This document shows, piece after piece, positions 1 to 37,941 of a stretch of DNA of 51,185 nucleotides. The notes under the pieces were generated by a model. It was not told where the DNA came from. It saw only the letters and a list, made by a program, of their open reading frames with translations, and did no database searches. Each line of letters opens with the position of its first letter. Position 1 is the first letter of the stretch. A program made the position numbers and the translations under genes. The stretch is from Spirogloea muscicola (Eukaryota; Streptophyta; Zygnematophyceae; Spirogloeales; Spirogloeaceae). The stretch spans positions 1 through 51,185 of the forward strand of contig WELB01000398.1 of NCBI GenBank assembly GCA_009602725.1. Direction: 5' to 3'.

Positions 1-54
1 TAAACCCTAAACCCTAAACCCTAAACCCTAAACCCTAAACCCAGAACCCTAACC
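1..54. repeat. Terminal telomeric repeat, (CCCTAAA)n
   Basis: Six perfect units of TAAACCC are followed by two degenerate ones. This is the Arabidopsis-type plant telomere sequence, in the orientation expected at a left chromosome end. The array runs directly into a broken DNA polymerase coding region. Because the window starts here I cannot see whether the array is longer. Confidence 0.92.
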
Positions 55-2418
55 TCGCTGCCACTCTCTACTGAGGACAAGACGTTGACCTCGTCTGCTG
101 AGCTCCTGATTATCGCTTTCTTTACCGTCCTCACTCTTTGCGCTAGCTTACCGCTCATCGAATTTAGCATCACCTTTAGGACCTCCCTAAAGACGGGCTG
201 TATGCGCTGCTATAAGACCTCTTCCAAGCGTCTTGCTGTTCCTTCATCTCTATCAGCTTCGAGAAGGTCCTCTTGAATATGTCGCTCCTGCTCGTAGGCC
301 AGTATATCCCGTTGTAGATCTTGGGCTTGACACCATGTGACATTAGCTGCTGCTCTATTTCTATGCTTGTAATATGGCATCTTATTGGTCGGTCCGATCT
401 CCAGTTCAAAGATAAGAGCTCCTTTCTCAAGGGCACTATGTTGTCGCTAGGCTGCTTAGGTATATACACATCGTAGACTCCTATATGTCCAGGGACAAAC
501 CTATGTGCAGGCAGAGGATTTCCAACAGGGAACTTATTGTTCATCATAACCAAGGGGTAGTGACTGACCTTGTCTATGACTATGATCTCCTTGCCCTTGC
601 AGTCCTGATCAAATATCTCCGCTCTCCCTTCTATTGTTGCCCTCCTAACCTGCTGGTCTTCTTGGTAGTCCAAGATGGGGATACTATCTATACCCGCTCT
701 GTTAAGGTCCTCCTTGAACCTCTTGTACATCATGCTAGGCAAGGTAATTTCGCAATAGATATCCAGGTCTGTTGCGAGCATAAGAGCGCTCCTAGTCTTG
801 AAGTACAACTCTGCCAAACATTCTAGATCCTTCAGTGAATAAGACAGTATTTTGTGCCAATTCTTCTCTAGATACTCCGTCAGAGATCCATTTATGTATG
901 CAGACTGCACTACGTCGTGGTTCAGCTCCTCCTTGACCTTTGCACATCTAAAACTCTCGCACGCTTTCCTGAGGCTCCCGCTAACAAACCTGCTAAGATC
1001 TTTTACTTGGAAGCCTTGCAAGCATATCATAAGTATCGAATATCTTGAGAATATCTCACCCCTGTGCCAAGCGTGGTTCTTGCTAGCAGCATTGAGAAGA
1101 AGATAATTGTCAAACCTGCTGTAGTTAAAGCCTACAAGATAGTGCACACATCCCTTCTTAACCGGAGCGTTATGCACGATGTACTGTATGAAGTCTCTCT
1201 CTACTGCGTGCTCATCTGGGTTCCCCATCTTAAACCTCCTGTCTATAATATTACCAAGGCTGTCAACTACGGCTACAGAGTACGCATACGGCATCATCTC
1301 TAGCGTGTCTTTGCTCCACACTGTCTCAAAGTCGAAGGAAAAGTACCTCCTATTAGATGGCCTGCTCTTACGCCTGCGGTAGCTGTTCATCCTTCCCTGA
1401 TATCAGCTGCGACCTTATCTCCCTGTCCGATAGCTTCTCTCCTGGCAAGAGTATCCGTCCTGTGGGTTTGCACATGTACTCATGTGGCTCTCTCTTCTTA
1501 GCAATTATATGCTGTGATGCCCATCCTTGAGCAATAGTGATATGTCAGATGACCCTTTGCCGTGGAGCAGCCGCGGCTTCTCGATATCTACATGGAGTGT
1601 GTAGTCGCTGATGTGCCCCGTGTCTTTGTCCACAGCAGACACCACAAGGTCGACAACATCTTCGTAGACGTCTAGTCTTTGCATAATGATTCTCTATCTT
1701 GTGGATATCCCACACGCCTATAAAGCCTCTCCCTAGCCTTATGTTATCCCGCATTATATCGGGGTAGAAGCCTATGTGCAGGCTGTCTGCTACGCACCTC
1801 AGTAGACAGTCGCCATCGTCTGCTGGCCCACTCTTCTTCACCTCGTAAAAGACGACATCAGACTTGCCTGATCCACCCTCATTCTTTCTGCTGACATGGA
1901 CTATAATCATGCCAAAATCTAGTGCACACATAGTCATCAATTCTACGATGTCACCATAACCATCAAATATGTCGAAAGACCTCCCGTTCTCTGCGTCCAA
2001 TATGTTCTGTAAGACCCAGTCCCAGCCCTCCCTTTCTATGTCCCTCTTAGGCATAGATATGAATGTAGTCCTATTTCTTGTGCTAACAAAGCCGAGTGTC
2101 AGCCCTGTCGCGGTGTACCCCTCTGTTTGGTCAGCTGTGTGTATTGCTGACCTGACTATTATCAAGAATTCTTCGTTTAAAGATGGGAGAGCCTGATCTG
2201 CCTTTGTTAAAGGTAAGCCTCGTTGGCCCTCTGATCGACCTCTCTACAGTGTACACATACTTCCCATCAAACTCGTAAATTTGAGTGTGGACATCCTGTA
2301 CCGGCCTTGTAGGTGCCCAGTACTGCTCAGCGTACTGCCTGTTCTCGTTCCGCAGGTCCTCTAGCTGAGGTTGGAGCCGTAAAATCTGCTGCTCGAGGAA
2401 CAGCCGTGTGCCTGCCAT
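52..2418 (-). pseudogene. Decayed protein-primed family B DNA polymerase (polinton/linear-plasmid type), truncated by the telomere
   Basis: Three overlapping minus-strand reading frames form one ancestral gene. 2418-2131 holds the start ATG and a coiled N-terminus. 2165-1545 holds a GDCLLR..ADSL segment that may be an OTU-like module (tentative). 1390-176 holds the exonuclease and start of the polymerase domain. In the 404-codon frame I see ExoI (D20-F-E22), ExoII (N89-Y-S-R-F-D94), a viral-type VKDLSRF segment, ExoIII (Y184-x3-D188), an RRATIEGRAEIF segment and PolA (D273-KVSHYP). Motif B, KVMLNSMSGK, lies past the 404-codon stop in another frame at about 140-175. The frame then reaches telomeric repeat, so motif C (DTDS) is absent. 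At least four frame changes (near 2190, 1680, 1470-1400 and 197) show it is non-functional unless they are assembly errors. A selfish linear element of polinton-like virus or linear-plasmid type is the likely source. Which one cannot be settled without capsid or terminal-protein neighbours, and none are visible. Confidence 0.85.
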
Positions 2419-2515
2419 TGCTGGCTAAAATTGAGAGCACAAAGTCGTTGCTATCAGTTTGAGATGTCAGATCCAGTCATAAGACTGCTCCCTGTCAGGC
2501 CAAGACCGTCAATAT

Positions 2516-2570
2516 GGCCTGCTCCTAAAGAGCCTATGACCCTAAACCTGGCCTGCTCCTAAAGAGCCTA
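2516..2570. repeat. Direct repeat pair beside internal telomeric tract
   Basis: The same 21-base sequence (starting GGCCTGCTCC) occurs at 2516-2536 and 2550-2570, separated by 13 bases that contain one CCCTAAA-like unit. It looks like slippage or subtelomeric duplication at the inner border of the polymerase relic. Confidence 0.7.
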
Positions 2571-2611
2571 AACCCTAAACCCTAAACCATAAACCTAAAC
2601 CCTAAACCCTT
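2568..2611. repeat. Interstitial telomeric repeat
   Basis: About six CCCTAAA units, two of them degenerate, in the same orientation as the terminal array. With 1-54 this encloses the polymerase relic between two telomeric tracts. Confidence 0.88.
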
Positions 2612-2663
2612 AAGTCCCACTTCACATAGGGTTATTCTTCGCGTAGTCCCACTAGCTTTTGCC

Positions 2664-2720
2664 CGAACATTGTATTGCCTTGATTTGGCCTTTCATTCCG
2701 TTCGCCCGCTCACCTTCTCC
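2664..2720 (+). repeat. Degenerate LINE tail C
   Basis: Matches, with many changes, the sense of the tail that starts TGCCTGAACAATGTAT and ends in a GCGC-rich CCTTCTCC. It is the oldest-looking of about ten copies in the window. Confidence 0.6.
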
Positions 2721-2969
2721 CGCTCATTGTAACCGCCGTTGATATCCATAACGCATGAATTGGATTAGTCTCTCACGATGTTGTACCGCTCCGCGTGGGT
2801 TGTTGCCAGCCAGGCACAGGCGGCGAAGGTGCCCCCTTGTTCGACAGCGTCAGTGAGTACGACGTCGAGGGAATAATGTCCCCTACAGTGTCACCTTCGC
2901 ATTCTGCATTCCGCAGGCATCAGTTGCATCCTGTAGAATGCGACTTTCGCTTAGGTTGCAGCGCTCGCA

Positions 2970-3202
2970 ACTCTTGCTCTTCATCAGCGTGCAGGGCGCG
3001 CTCTACGTCAGGCCACCGGCTCCCCGAGTTACCTGGTCGTATTTGCATGTGCTCACCTGTGAGTACCAATGTCACCCTGTTAATAAGGCACCTCAGCGTA
3101 GGGCTCCGTTTCATGTAGCCTTTTTTATCCTGCACTCGATTCTGCCTGAACAATGTATTTGCTTGAATTGGCCTCCCTTTTATTTTATGCTCTCCGCGCG
3201 CC
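2970..3202 (+). mobile_element. 5'-truncated LINE 3' end, tail C
   Basis: Closely parallels 25680-25930 over its whole length: TTCATCA.CGTGCAGGGCGCGC, a mutated protein C-terminus region (3030-3085), ATGTAGCC, CTGCACTCGA.TCTGCCTG, then tail C. The coding part no longer reads cleanly, so this is an older copy than the one at 25.7 kb. Confidence 0.7.
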
Positions 3203-9258: not shown

Positions 9259-9346
9259 AGAGAAGGCGCGCGGGGCGCATGAATTGAAAGGGAGGCCAAT
9301 TCAAGCCAATACATTGTTCAGGCAGAGTCGAGTGCAGACTAAACAA
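9259..9346 (-). repeat. LINE tail C (antisense)
   Basis: Complete tail-C copy. A partial sense copy follows 15 bases later at 9361-9411, so the two form an inverted pair. Confidence 0.75.
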
Positions 9347-9411: not shown

Positions 9412-9529
9412 TCAAAGGAAAGCCAGCTCGGGCCGGATGGGCAAAAGGGGGAAGGGGACCCCGGCGCTGGCTGGCTGAGGCCCGCGCGCCTCTGTTGGCG
9501 GAGCCGAAAGAAGAAGTGGCACTCCCAAT

Positions 9530-9840
9530 GGGGGCAAGGGCTGCGAAAAGCCAGCCCAAAAAGAATTCAAAGCCGAAAGGGGCGGGGATATCTTCAATGG
9601 GCGAGCACTTACCCCGGGCGTCGCACCCTCGTGCCGGCAGAGCCCTCGCTGCTGCCTCTGGCTCTGGTCAGGGGACCCACTTCAACGAGCCTAGCCTCTC
9701 CGACCTGCGGCTGCTTAGCAGAGGTTACTGAGTGATTCGTAGCTGTTGTGTTTCTTAGCGCTTCCCCTGGCCCCCTTCTCGTATTCTGTTCATTCTTTAT
9801 CGGGCTGGTTTTTTCCAGCCCCTATTCTCAATGGGCGAGC
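9530..9840 (+). mobile_element. 5'-truncated LINE 3' end, tail A
   Basis: Codons up to the stop at about 9731 read AGRALAAASGSGQGTHF, then SDLRLLSRGY-stop. Tail A follows: GCGCTTCCCCTGGCCCCC, a GGGCTGG..CCAGCCCC hairpin at 9803-9826, then CAATGGGCGAGCACTT. A separate hairpin unit (GGGCTGCGAAAAGCCAGCCC, 9538-9557) lies just upstream. The tail ends about 80 bases before the start codon of the next gene, so it may supply part of that gene's promoter or 5' leader. Confidence 0.82.
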
Positions 9841-21153: not shown

Positions 21154-23878
21154 CTCGCTCGACTCCACGCTTCCCGGTGGCTCGGTGCCTGTGGGTCTTG
21201 TGTCCTGCTACCGAACGCGTCCATCCATGTGCCTACAGCGGTCCCAGGCGGTTGCTTTGCATCGCCGGGCTGGTCGCGCGCCCTTGCAGCAGCCTCGGGT
21301 CCGCGCAGCGGGGTTGCTCTTCACTTCTTTCCTCCCCTCAGCTCATCTGACTTCCTACTGCTGACACGAGGGTATTGATGGCGCCCTGTCTGCCCAGCCT
21401 TTGGCTCCGTCATAAACACCTGTATGCATCTGGCTGGCAGTTTACAGCCGATTCTTGTGGCCCAGCTGCCTTTCCACGCTGCTCGGTGGCTCGAGGCTCC
21501 TGTGCCGGCTAGCGCGCAGCGCGGCGTCCCCCCCCCGACGCCACCAAGGGGGAAAGGCCGACTACTTACAACGCTGGCCCCTCCGAACTCCGTTCATCCC
21601 CCCTTTCTGGGCTGGCCACTCACAGCTATCGCCGTCTACTGGAAGAGTCCTCCCCGTTTCCGGTGTGCTGGGAGTGCCGCCAATGACCACCCGGGCTGCC
21701 ACAGACTCGGCTGCCTGAAGAGATTCCTGCCCACACGGCAAGCGCTTTGAGCAGGAAGAGGAGCTGAGGGCTCCAGCCGGCTCGAAGCCAGGGCCTGGCG
21801 GTTTGTCGAAGAGGAAGGTGTAGCATGGGTCGGCAGACTTGATGGTATTGGGTGTCGAAGCTGGCCTGGCAGCTGACGAGCTCTTGTGCACACACGAAGG
21901 CCCCGCATGCTTCTCGATGTCAGCGGGGGGCTGTTTCAGGAGCGGCGGTGGCTGTGAGGGTCACGGCCCGGTGTGGGCTGATCATGGGCCGGTCTGGCAG
22001 ACGAAGCAAGCAAGAAACCAGAGGCGGCAGGGGGGTTTCAGGTGGCAAATGGCAGCAAGCCAGCTTGTACAGGGGTGGAGAGGAAGTCACCGGTCTGCGG
22101 CAGGCTGCTATGATGCTGATGCCGGGGTCCAGGCTGGGCAACTCCGGACCGGATGGCTGGTTGGTCAGGACTGGGCGGTGGGACGTGGCCAGAACTCCCC
22201 GTGGCGCTGTCTCTGGTCCAGGCAGCTTCATGACCAAACCTCAAGGGCTGCTCTTGCTTGGACTGTTGGTATATCTGCAAGAAATGTGAGCAGGCCATGA
22301 AGTGGCTGAAAGCAAGACAAGGGGTCGGAAAGGGGCGAAGAGGCGGCATCTGCAGCACCATCTGCCACAAAGGCAGGTAGAAGCAGCAGTGGCACCATTG
22401 GAGGTCCCGAGTGCTAAGAGAGTGCCAGGGGCTTGGCTCGCTGACGGCGTCGATCACATTGGCCTTGTGGGGTACTGGGAGATGGAGAGCGTCTACAAGA
22501 GGTTGCTGCGTATGGCGGCAGATACTTCCCAACCCCTCTGAAATGAGGCTTTGATTGTGTGCGGGCCAGGCTGCTGCCGGAGGTGGCTTGTCACAGAGTA
22601 GTCACTTTGACGCTGGCGAATGCGGTGACGTCCAAGGACTGGCCAATATGTTATCCCAATGCTGCAAGCTTGCTCTGGAGCACTGTGCTGCGTGCACCCA
22701 TGCGCGTGTCGGTGCCAGGCCTTGGGTCCCCAGCCTGGCTTTGCAACCTCGAGCCACCACTCAGGGCGTGCACTCGGTGCACGCACAGATCGCAACCTCC
22801 TAGAGGGCGAGGGTGTCAAGTGCCCAAGCATTGCAGCTGTGGAGTCATTGTATTGCAGTGGCATCCGCCAAAAGCTCACTGTTCGAAGCACTACGCTAGG
22901 CTTACTCGAGCAGATAGTGCAAGCACCGTACTGACATCAAGGGGCCCGCCCAACGCCTTTCGCTCAATTGAAGGTGGCACTGGAGAGCAGAGTCCACCCT
23001 GTGCACGGTCAGGGAGGCAGCTCGTAATGTCGTTGACCATTCCGGCACTCCCACAGCAATGGTAGGCCTTACCTACAAGTGGAAGTTGTGCACGAGACCA
23101 AGCTGTGTTCTTTTAGACGGGGGGGGCATGTGTCTGCTGGAGGCATCTGGAGGTCCATCTGCAAAGGCCGACAGAGAAATTCTGTTGCTGCTGCCGCCGC
23201 TGTCGAGAGACAGAGAACCGTCCTATCGCTCGTGGCAGCCCTATGACCGGTGCAACAAGCCCCCCGCCATGCCCAACTCGTGCTCCGAGCTACCGCGCAC
23301 ATGTGTGCCTGCGCCGAATGCAGGAGGCGGCCTGCACGAGCTGAATGCCTATACACCTGATGCAGCCTGCATGCAGTCGGGAAGACGCTGCGGGATACCG
23401 AGTGTGGAGGCGAGGCAGGGCAACGTGAAGCTGTGGCTAGCCTCTGCTCACCGAGCTTCCGAGGACCAGCAAACAAATTAATGAATAATGTGGGCAGGGT
23501 GGAATGCCTGCGAGGTGCAATGGTAGCAGGGCCTTTGGAGGAAGGCCAGCAGTGATGTGGGTGAGGAGTGAGGGCGCTGCGCTGGTTGTTGCCGCCACGG
23601 TGGCGGCTGCCCCCTGCAAGCGGGAACCTCTGCGCGCGGAGGTGGTCTGGGAGCCCGCGCAGTGTCTGCGCACCGGTGTGGAGACTACAGGACCGGCGTG
23701 CCACACGGGGAGGGGCGGGGGCTCCTGCTGAAGGTGAGGAGGGGCTGCCGCGGCTTGTGCTGTGCGCCACGGGGTGTTCTGGTCAGCCCGAGCACGGCTC
23801 CTTGCAGCCGTTGTGCAGTGCGCTCCGCGTGCCGTTTGGCGGGCCTGGCCGGAAAGGAGGTGCAGGCCACGCGCTCGG
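21154..23878. other. Stretch without a recognisable gene
   Basis: GC-rich sequence with many overlapping open frames on both strands. Weakly coding-like stretches include minus 21891-21562 (CYTFLFDKPPGPGFEPAGA) and plus 22400-22541 (DHIGLVGYWEMESVYKRLL). None matches a family I know and no exon chain can be built. It may hold a fast-evolving gene or the long upstream and downstream regions of neighbours. Confidence 0.4.
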
Positions 23879-25678
<1,800 letters not shown>

Positions 25679-34547: not shown

Positions 34548-34574
34548 GGGTTTAGGGTTTAGGGTTTAGGGTTT
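34548..34574. repeat. Interstitial telomeric tract (TTTAGGG)n
   Basis: 27 bases of perfect plant telomeric repeat, in the opposite orientation to the array at base 1. It lies between the 5' ends of two divergent LINE fragments. Confidence 0.92.
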
Positions 34575-37282: not shown

Positions 37283-37941
37283 NNNNNNNNNNNNNNNNNN
37301 NNNNNNNNNNNNNNNNNNNNNNNNNNNNNNNNNNNNNNNNNNNNNNNNNNNNNNNNNNNNNNNNNNNNNNNNNNNNNNNNNNNNNNNNNNNNNNNNNNNN
37401 NNNNNNNNNNNNNNNNNNNNNNNNNNNNNNNNNNNNNNNNNNNNNNNNNNNNNNNNNNNNNNNNNNNNNNNNNNNNNNNNNNNNNNNNNNNNNNNNNNNN
37501 NNNNNNNNNNNNNNNNNNNNNNNNNNNNNNNNNNNNNNNNNNNNNNNNNNNNNNNNNNNNNNNNNNNNNNNNNNNNNNNNNNNNNNNNNNNNNNNNNNNN
37601 NNNNNNNNNNNNNNNNNNNNNNNNNNNNNNNNNNNNNNNNNNNNNNNNNNNNNNNNNNNNNNNNNNNNNNNNNNNNNNNNNNNNNNNNNNNNNNNNNNNN
37701 NNNNNNNNNNNNNNNNNNNNNNNNNNNNNNNNNNNNNNNNNNNNNNNNNNNNNNNNNNNNNNNNNNNNNNNNNNNNNNNNNNNNNNNNNNNNNNNNNNNN
37801 NNNNNNNNNNNNNNNNNNNNNNNNNNNNNNNNNNNNNNNNNNNNNNNNNNNNNNNNNNNNNNNNNNNNNNNNNNNNNNNNNNNNNNNNNNNNNNNNNNNN
37901 NNNNNNNNNNNNNNNNNNNNNNNNNNNNNNNNNNNNNNNNN
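37283..37941. other. Assembly gap (659 N)
   Basis: Flanked on both sides by LINE fragments, so it is probably a repeat-induced gap. Confidence 0.95.

Follow-up and report, generated by a model that had tools for sequence, protein, structure and literature searches.

Viral DNA fragments lie between inner and terminal telomeric tracts at two contig ends of the alga Spirogloea muscicola

The way in which the DNA of giant viruses gains access to host chromosomes is still little understood. In telomere capture and chromosome healing, a broken end receives a new telomere, and foreign DNA can be found at an eroded end. In HHV-6, telomeric repeats are part of the viral genome itself. Telomere integration of HHV-6 is mentioned in PMC12993054. 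In Acanthamoeba, giant-virus insertions are found disproportionately near chromosome ends, by canonical and degenerate telomeric repeats, and partial copies occur elsewhere (PMC12210455). Giant endogenous viral elements have also been described in Euglena gracilis, one insertion being subtelomeric (PMC12455990). Finally, the protein-primed family B polymerases (pPolB) of the polinton type have the architecture TP-vOTU-EXO-PALM (PMC11071308).

The stretch of DNA studied here (hereafter the window) is the whole of contig C398 (WELB01000398.1; 51,185 bases) of Spirogloea muscicola, whose genus belongs to the algal sisters of land plants. The genome searched comprises 153.1 Mb in 471 contigs. As in telomere capture and healing, a broken end appears to be capped; here the captured DNA is viral and the situation recurs within one genome. 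As with HHV-6, viral DNA is found at telomeres. HHV-6 possesses its own telomeric repeats, whereas no exact two-unit array occurs in C104:1-10000 or in C179:138001-158000, two viral loci that amount to a small part of a viral genome. As in the Acanthamoeba subtelomeres, some viral pieces lie near ends or telomeric repeats and partial copies are present elsewhere; in contrast, no fragment flanked by an inner tract and a like-oriented terminal tract is described in the available part of that report (PMC12210455), and the available part of the Euglena report likewise describes no two-tract layout (PMC12455990). Subtelomeric giant-virus insertions were thus known, and what is added here is the two-tract layout, at two ends of the genome of a zygnematophycean alga. 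A literature search found no report linking S. muscicola with a giant virus and, among the titles listed, none of a viral fragment between two telomere tracts. A junction that keeps an inner as well as an outer tract hints at the sequence in which the steps took place and favours repair of ends by the host over the action of a viral integrase. With two such ends in a single zygnematophycean alga, the question can be put to the test.

Table 1. Features at the left end of the window
Feature	Position	Strand	Basis or remark
Terminal telomeric tract, (CCCTAAA)n	1-52	+	TRF, period-7 TAAACCC; viral junction about 52-54
Viral fragment with decayed pPolB gene	55-2536	-	Comparison with C104; PF03175
Exonuclease and start of palm, 404 aa	179-1390	-	DNA_pol_B_2; frame open to 1402
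Upstream part, broken frames	1371-2418	-	Counterpart of intact 350-aa frame in C104
Junction duplication: 22-bp viral end, 12 telomere-like bases, 22 bp again	2515-2570	+	
Second, internal telomeric tract, orientation as terminal one	2567-2610	+	TRF, period-7 CCTAAAC
Host DNA adjoining the inner tract	2612-2891		

The features of the left end of the window are collected in Table 1. Both tracts read CCCTAAA on the forward strand, as a telomere does at the left end of a chromosome. When CCCTAAACCCTAAA was searched with at most one mismatch, 11 matches were found in the window against a maximum of 0 in 100 shuffles. Together with the TRF results and the PF03175 and PHROG 1907 matches given below, these shuffles confirm the view of the earlier note that a pPolB relic lies between two telomeric tracts of one orientation. 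Its placing of the relic at 52-2418 needs to be revised in one respect, as comparison with contig C104 carries the viral stretch to 2536. Neither tract is long, and the inner one is itself degenerate. Directly before it stand 34 duplicated bp (22 viral and 12 telomere-like bases), and the tetranucleotide CCTA is common to the inner junction and to the CCCTAAA repeat. On the chromosomal side, 2612-2891 gave no further match among the 40 candidates scored out of 880, nor did these 40 include an empty homologous chromosome end, without viral DNA. The next segment, 2906-3130, is a dispersed repeat. Farther along the contig, a third, internal telomeric array (34548-34574, GGGTTTA, 3.9 copies) has the orientation opposite to that of both tracts. 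Window 25261-25678 is made up of a 122-base T run and then an N gap, and G+C is low at 37-38 kb because a second N gap (37283-37941) is located there.

The exonuclease and palm domains of a protein-primed family B polymerase are both recognized in the viral fragment. PF03175 (DNA_pol_B_2) matches the minus-strand frame 179-1402 with an E-value of 1e-20, the best stretch covering profile positions 140-366 of 468, and the PHROG 1907 DNA polymerase family matches residues 5-386 of the 404-aa frame (1.7e-13). An ATG at 1390 stands near the exonuclease motif, the motifs having been located by eye. The minus-strand piece 24-209 reaches only 0.039 with PF03175 and, as judged by eye, the frame 21-209 runs into the telomeric repeat, motif C and the thumb being missing from the window. 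Read in this way, the palm extends no farther than motif B, as it is there that the terminal telomere sets in. The upstream part is distributed over frames -1 and -2, with the polymerase in frame -3; since it matches in two frames what is a single intact frame in C104, the window copy is broken. In this part, GDCL and HHS/HYS motifs were seen by eye, resembling the vOTU of the published architecture (PMC11071308). The vOTU-like part had no Pfam match at an E-value of 1. The fold of the C104 upstream frame, predicted without alignment, was poor (mean pLDDT 38.6), as was a second structure predicted in the same way (36.6); in the C104 frame, residues 43-144, considered as a possible terminal protein domain, are predicted with modest confidence to fold into a strand/helix domain, and a fold search with this model returned no BFVD match at 0.001. 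Sequence searches at 0.001 yielded no relative of the pPolB frame among 1,890 candidates and none of the vOTU-like frame among 1,412, all sized 0.55-1.75 times the query, so that long polinton pPolBs were beyond reach. Neither frame had relatives in viral contigs, and comparison of the polymerase, vOTU-like and capping frames with the PDB by sequence gave nothing useful. Judging from domains and motifs, the window gene is the relic of a protein-primed family B polymerase, probably of the polinton type. It shares with this type the exonuclease, the palm and upstream Cys/His motifs that by eye resemble a vOTU (PMC11071308), but it is decayed, and in C104 the upstream part and the polymerase occupy separate frames.

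The C104 copy allows the inner limit of the fragment to be defined. Window 1048-2540 corresponds to C104:2570-4062 with a BLAST identity of 96.2%; when aligned bases alone are counted, the figure is 97.0%, and the alignment contains seven gaps, each of 1-2 bases. Exact identity stops at window 2536, beyond which C104 diverges, and window 55-1047 is without counterpart in C104. The C104 upstream part closes with its own stop, the polymerase ATG lying just before it in another frame. A profile search of the genome with PF03175 reported the window match and none elsewhere; a further pPolB scrap, of 76 bases, is found in C115. Around the C104 copy are a capping-enzyme-like frame (PF01331, 0.0056, under the cut-off), a helicase frame that is interrupted near position 1781, and a pair of pieces of a Prim-Pol family, one above and one under the cut-off. 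The sole telomere-like sequence in C104:1-10000 is a degenerate TTTAGGTTTAGGGG at 9273, about 5.2 kb from the pPolB copy. The pPolB copies found besides that of the window, in C104 and C115, are thus remote from telomeric repeats, which by the criterion of the earlier note speaks against its proposal; for the virus family as a whole this is not so, given contig C112, described below.

The earlier note also proposed that a linear, protein-capped element had met the telomere by its own ends. Integration of such an element at a telomere through its own end mechanism would be in keeping with the presence of a pPolB and a vOTU-like part. Moreover, beyond the shared breakpoint C104 shows three frames without a clear gene start, so that a natural element terminus may lie near window 2536. 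However, the gene is cut on the telomere side, and the ends of the fragment carry no inverted repeats: the ten imperfect pairs of L004:1-6600 and the single pair of window 1-2700 all lie elsewhere, although both pPolB pieces may be mere parts of an element. No inverted copy of the 22-mer from the window 2536 end was found in the fetched loci. With, in addition, a C104 copy devoid of exact tracts over 10 kb and a C112 end that has helicase and capping genes and no pPolB match, such an integration seems very improbable.

At C112, the layout is the mirror image of that of the window. About 4.7 kb of viral DNA (about C112:451319-456044) is flanked on one side by an inner TTTAGGG tract and on the other by a terminal tract from 456045. 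The inner tract has exact TTTAGGG units at 451285-451312 and a partial one to 451318; under it, degenerate G-rich repeats form a base similar to that of the C107 telomere, which the inner window tract does not have. The viral stretch contains a 740-aa helicase frame, whose best protein match is the EukProt gene SM000112S24010 (s112:451574-454129), coinciding in position with the helicase locus; gene ids with this format are those of S. muscicola (PMC12290401). It also contains a capping gene split over two frames. The terminal TTTAGGG repeats at the contig end truncate this already frame-broken gene. In both cases, the outer tract is in telomere orientation and ends within foreign coding sequence, that of the polymerase in the window and that of the capping enzyme in C112. 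Five other telomeric contig ends show a single tract in the stretch seen (2.5 kb for C10, C22 and C29; about 1.5 kb for C107 and C235). The viral pieces had no match in these stretches of C10, C22, C29 and C107, and the C235 end gave one 38-base match, to C179b 9511-9547. Because C112 has the layout without a pPolB match, pPolB would be incidental to it; this also rules out pPolB as an agent targeting telomeres.

The explanation that we favour, and hold to be rather probable, is that pieces of broken viral DNA became attached to eroded telomeres and were then healed, independently at the window and C112 ends, the source being a giant virus, possibly together with a pPolB element. First, a broken piece of viral DNA would have been end-joined onto an eroded telomere. 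Since the inner tract is oriented as a chromosome end, with the chromosome inward, the viral DNA lies outside it, and 2567-2610 may be read as a former chromosome end. Second, the new outer end, cut within the polymerase gene, would have been healed by telomere addition, presumably by telomerase; because the outer cut falls inside a gene at the window and at C112 alike, the new end is not a viral end. The C112 end would result from an independent event with a different viral piece. The CCTA of the window junction and the 22-base repeat after 12 telomere-like bases are what is expected of joining by microhomology or template switching. Several observations weigh against this account: neither window tract is long, the inner one has no degenerate base such as that of C112, telomeric arrays are frequent inside the genome, and an exact tract adjoins the viral piece in only 2 of the 15 contigs scanned. 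From the earlier proposal of an element captured at the telomere and healed inside the polymerase gene, one may thus retain the foreign DNA lying on a tract and the outer end within a gene, with a similar case at C112; the capture and the healing themselves would follow in the order just described.

Other histories may be envisaged for the same junctions. The viral DNA might have been inserted long ago at an internal, subtelomeric array of telomeric repeats; a later break in the insert would have removed its outer arm and been healed, and the inner tract would never have been a chromosome end. Telomeric arrays are indeed common inside the genome (246 forward and 369 reverse matches to an exact 28-mer, many overlapping, with places for 100 among the matches listed), and in the window the inner tract, itself degenerate, lacks a subtelomeric base. 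But in two cases an array would have had to lie precisely where the insertion took place, against a background, away from the window and C112 loci, of three exact arrays of at least two units in the 140,543 bases fetched; the repeats under the inner tract of C112 also resemble a telomere base. We consider this course of events unlikely. A single capture could also have been followed by spread, an already capped viral end being copied by break-induced replication primed by telomeric microhomology. The CCTA at the inner junction and the 34-bp duplication, compatible with template switching, would suit such copying; as the viral genes of the window and C112 differ, at least two captures would nevertheless be needed, and no donor end with the window pPolB piece appears among the matches, which makes it improbable. 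An assembly artefact, in which telomeric repeats would have linked viral to host contigs or brought contigs to an end, is brought to mind by the N gaps of the window contig (25383-25678 and 37283-37941) and by the several loci of the viral copies. However, no N run lies within window 1-2700, the inner tract and duplication together span less than 100 bases, irregular and without a long perfect repeat, and the two ends agree with each other; there is little chance that an artefact accounts for them.

The favoured explanation, capture of broken viral DNA followed by healing, calls for a viral source, to which a third locus points. At C179:138-150 kb, core genes are found above the cut-off: RPB2 (3e-58), RPB1 (7e-7), D5 (D5_N, 7e-7) and a family B polymerase (2e-79), with a separate polymerase exonuclease piece (2e-21). 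The helicase and capping frames seen in C104 are encountered again in C112 and C179. The helicase matches DEAD (1e-6) and, in the PDB, best vaccinia NPH-I (0.014), while the capping enzyme is weak (0.0052-0.0056, under the cut-off), its C179 piece also matching other families weakly. With the C112 helicase, 206 proteins were retrieved at 0.001 among 7,995 scored; Linnemannia and Mortierella are among the few named matches in the best 120 of the 206. Scans of viral contigs with the C179 PolB and the C112 helicase gave no match. PF04451 (major capsid protein) had zero matches here and likewise zero in 14 control genomes. On gene content, the C104, C112 and C179 loci would derive from an endogenous giant virus (Nucleocytoviricota). 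The pPolB may come from this virus or from a companion element; Prim-Pol debris separates them in C104, and a co-travelling element is possible. The Prim-Pol family has 19 matches, on C403, C463, C67, C37, C107, C162, C63, C197, C225 and C104, with frames of up to 787 aa, four of the matches lying about 8 kb apart on C403 and five on C463. By its sequence, it looks like multi-copy virophage- or polinton-like elements. A repeat also touches the C179 locus: window 21204-21456 is 86.6% identical to C179:144442-144683, where the copy separates one half of the giant-virus PolB gene from the other, so that a host mobile element probably broke this gene.

Smaller viral pieces are scattered over the genome. 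Giant-virus gene scraps, ranging in size from tens of bases to a few hundred and in part chimeric or inverted, are present in C115, C86, C21, C226, C311, C215, C47, C54 and C265. At C115:80333-80440, 36 bases of the capping gene and 76 bases of the pPolB gene are fused with a 4-base overlap, and at C86:93140-94178 (about 1.04 kb), RPB1, capping and inverted capping pieces lie together. Such chimeras are the expected residue of end joining of loose fragments, and the same joining as that proposed at the telomeres would have scattered them. A D5 gene, 87% identical, is located 2.4 kb from the start of C31, whose first 600 bases are uracil-DNA glycosylase-like by eye and contain no telomere. The match in C17 starts right where the C104 helicase piece has its boundary, and a host repeat may account for it.

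Whether viral pieces prefer telomeres was considered with helicase, capping, D5, pPolB and vOTU-like queries, which matched 21 contigs. Fifteen of them were scanned for tracts (C398, C104, C112, C179, C232, C86, C39, C215, C115, C31, C458, C17, C226, C311 and C21), some over short stretches (600 bases in C31, 1,021 in C458, 1.9 kb in C115 and about 3 kb in four others); C47, C54, C61, C242, C15 and C265 fell outside the scan. An exact two-unit tract adjoins a viral piece in C398 and C112, that is, in 2 of the 15 contigs scanned out of the 21 known, and a telomere preference is therefore unproven. In C232, degenerate TTAGGG-like repeats lie about 2.9 kb from the viral scrap. Viral loci are closer to contig ends than a uniform distribution would give (P 0.0007 for nine loci with known contig size, the window excluded; P 0.001 for ten with C458 added; P 0.055 without C104 and C31), a contig end not necessarily being a chromosome end. 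C104 and C31 start inside viral DNA, without telomere, and assembly breaks at multi-copy DNA could cause this nearness. A more general proposal, for which we claim only a tentative standing, is that telomeres here would be a recurrent port of entry for giant-virus DNA: fragments present at the time of infection would patch eroded ends and be capped by telomerase, the same repair scattering scraps and chimeras. Two further arrangements of telomeric repeats were encountered. At C27:905790-906317, TTTAGGG and CCCTAAA arrays meet head-to-head, as in a telomere-telomere fusion or a scaffolding join, and at about C441:14800-15590 a long array of the variant TTCAGGG abuts a CCCTAAA array at a single N.
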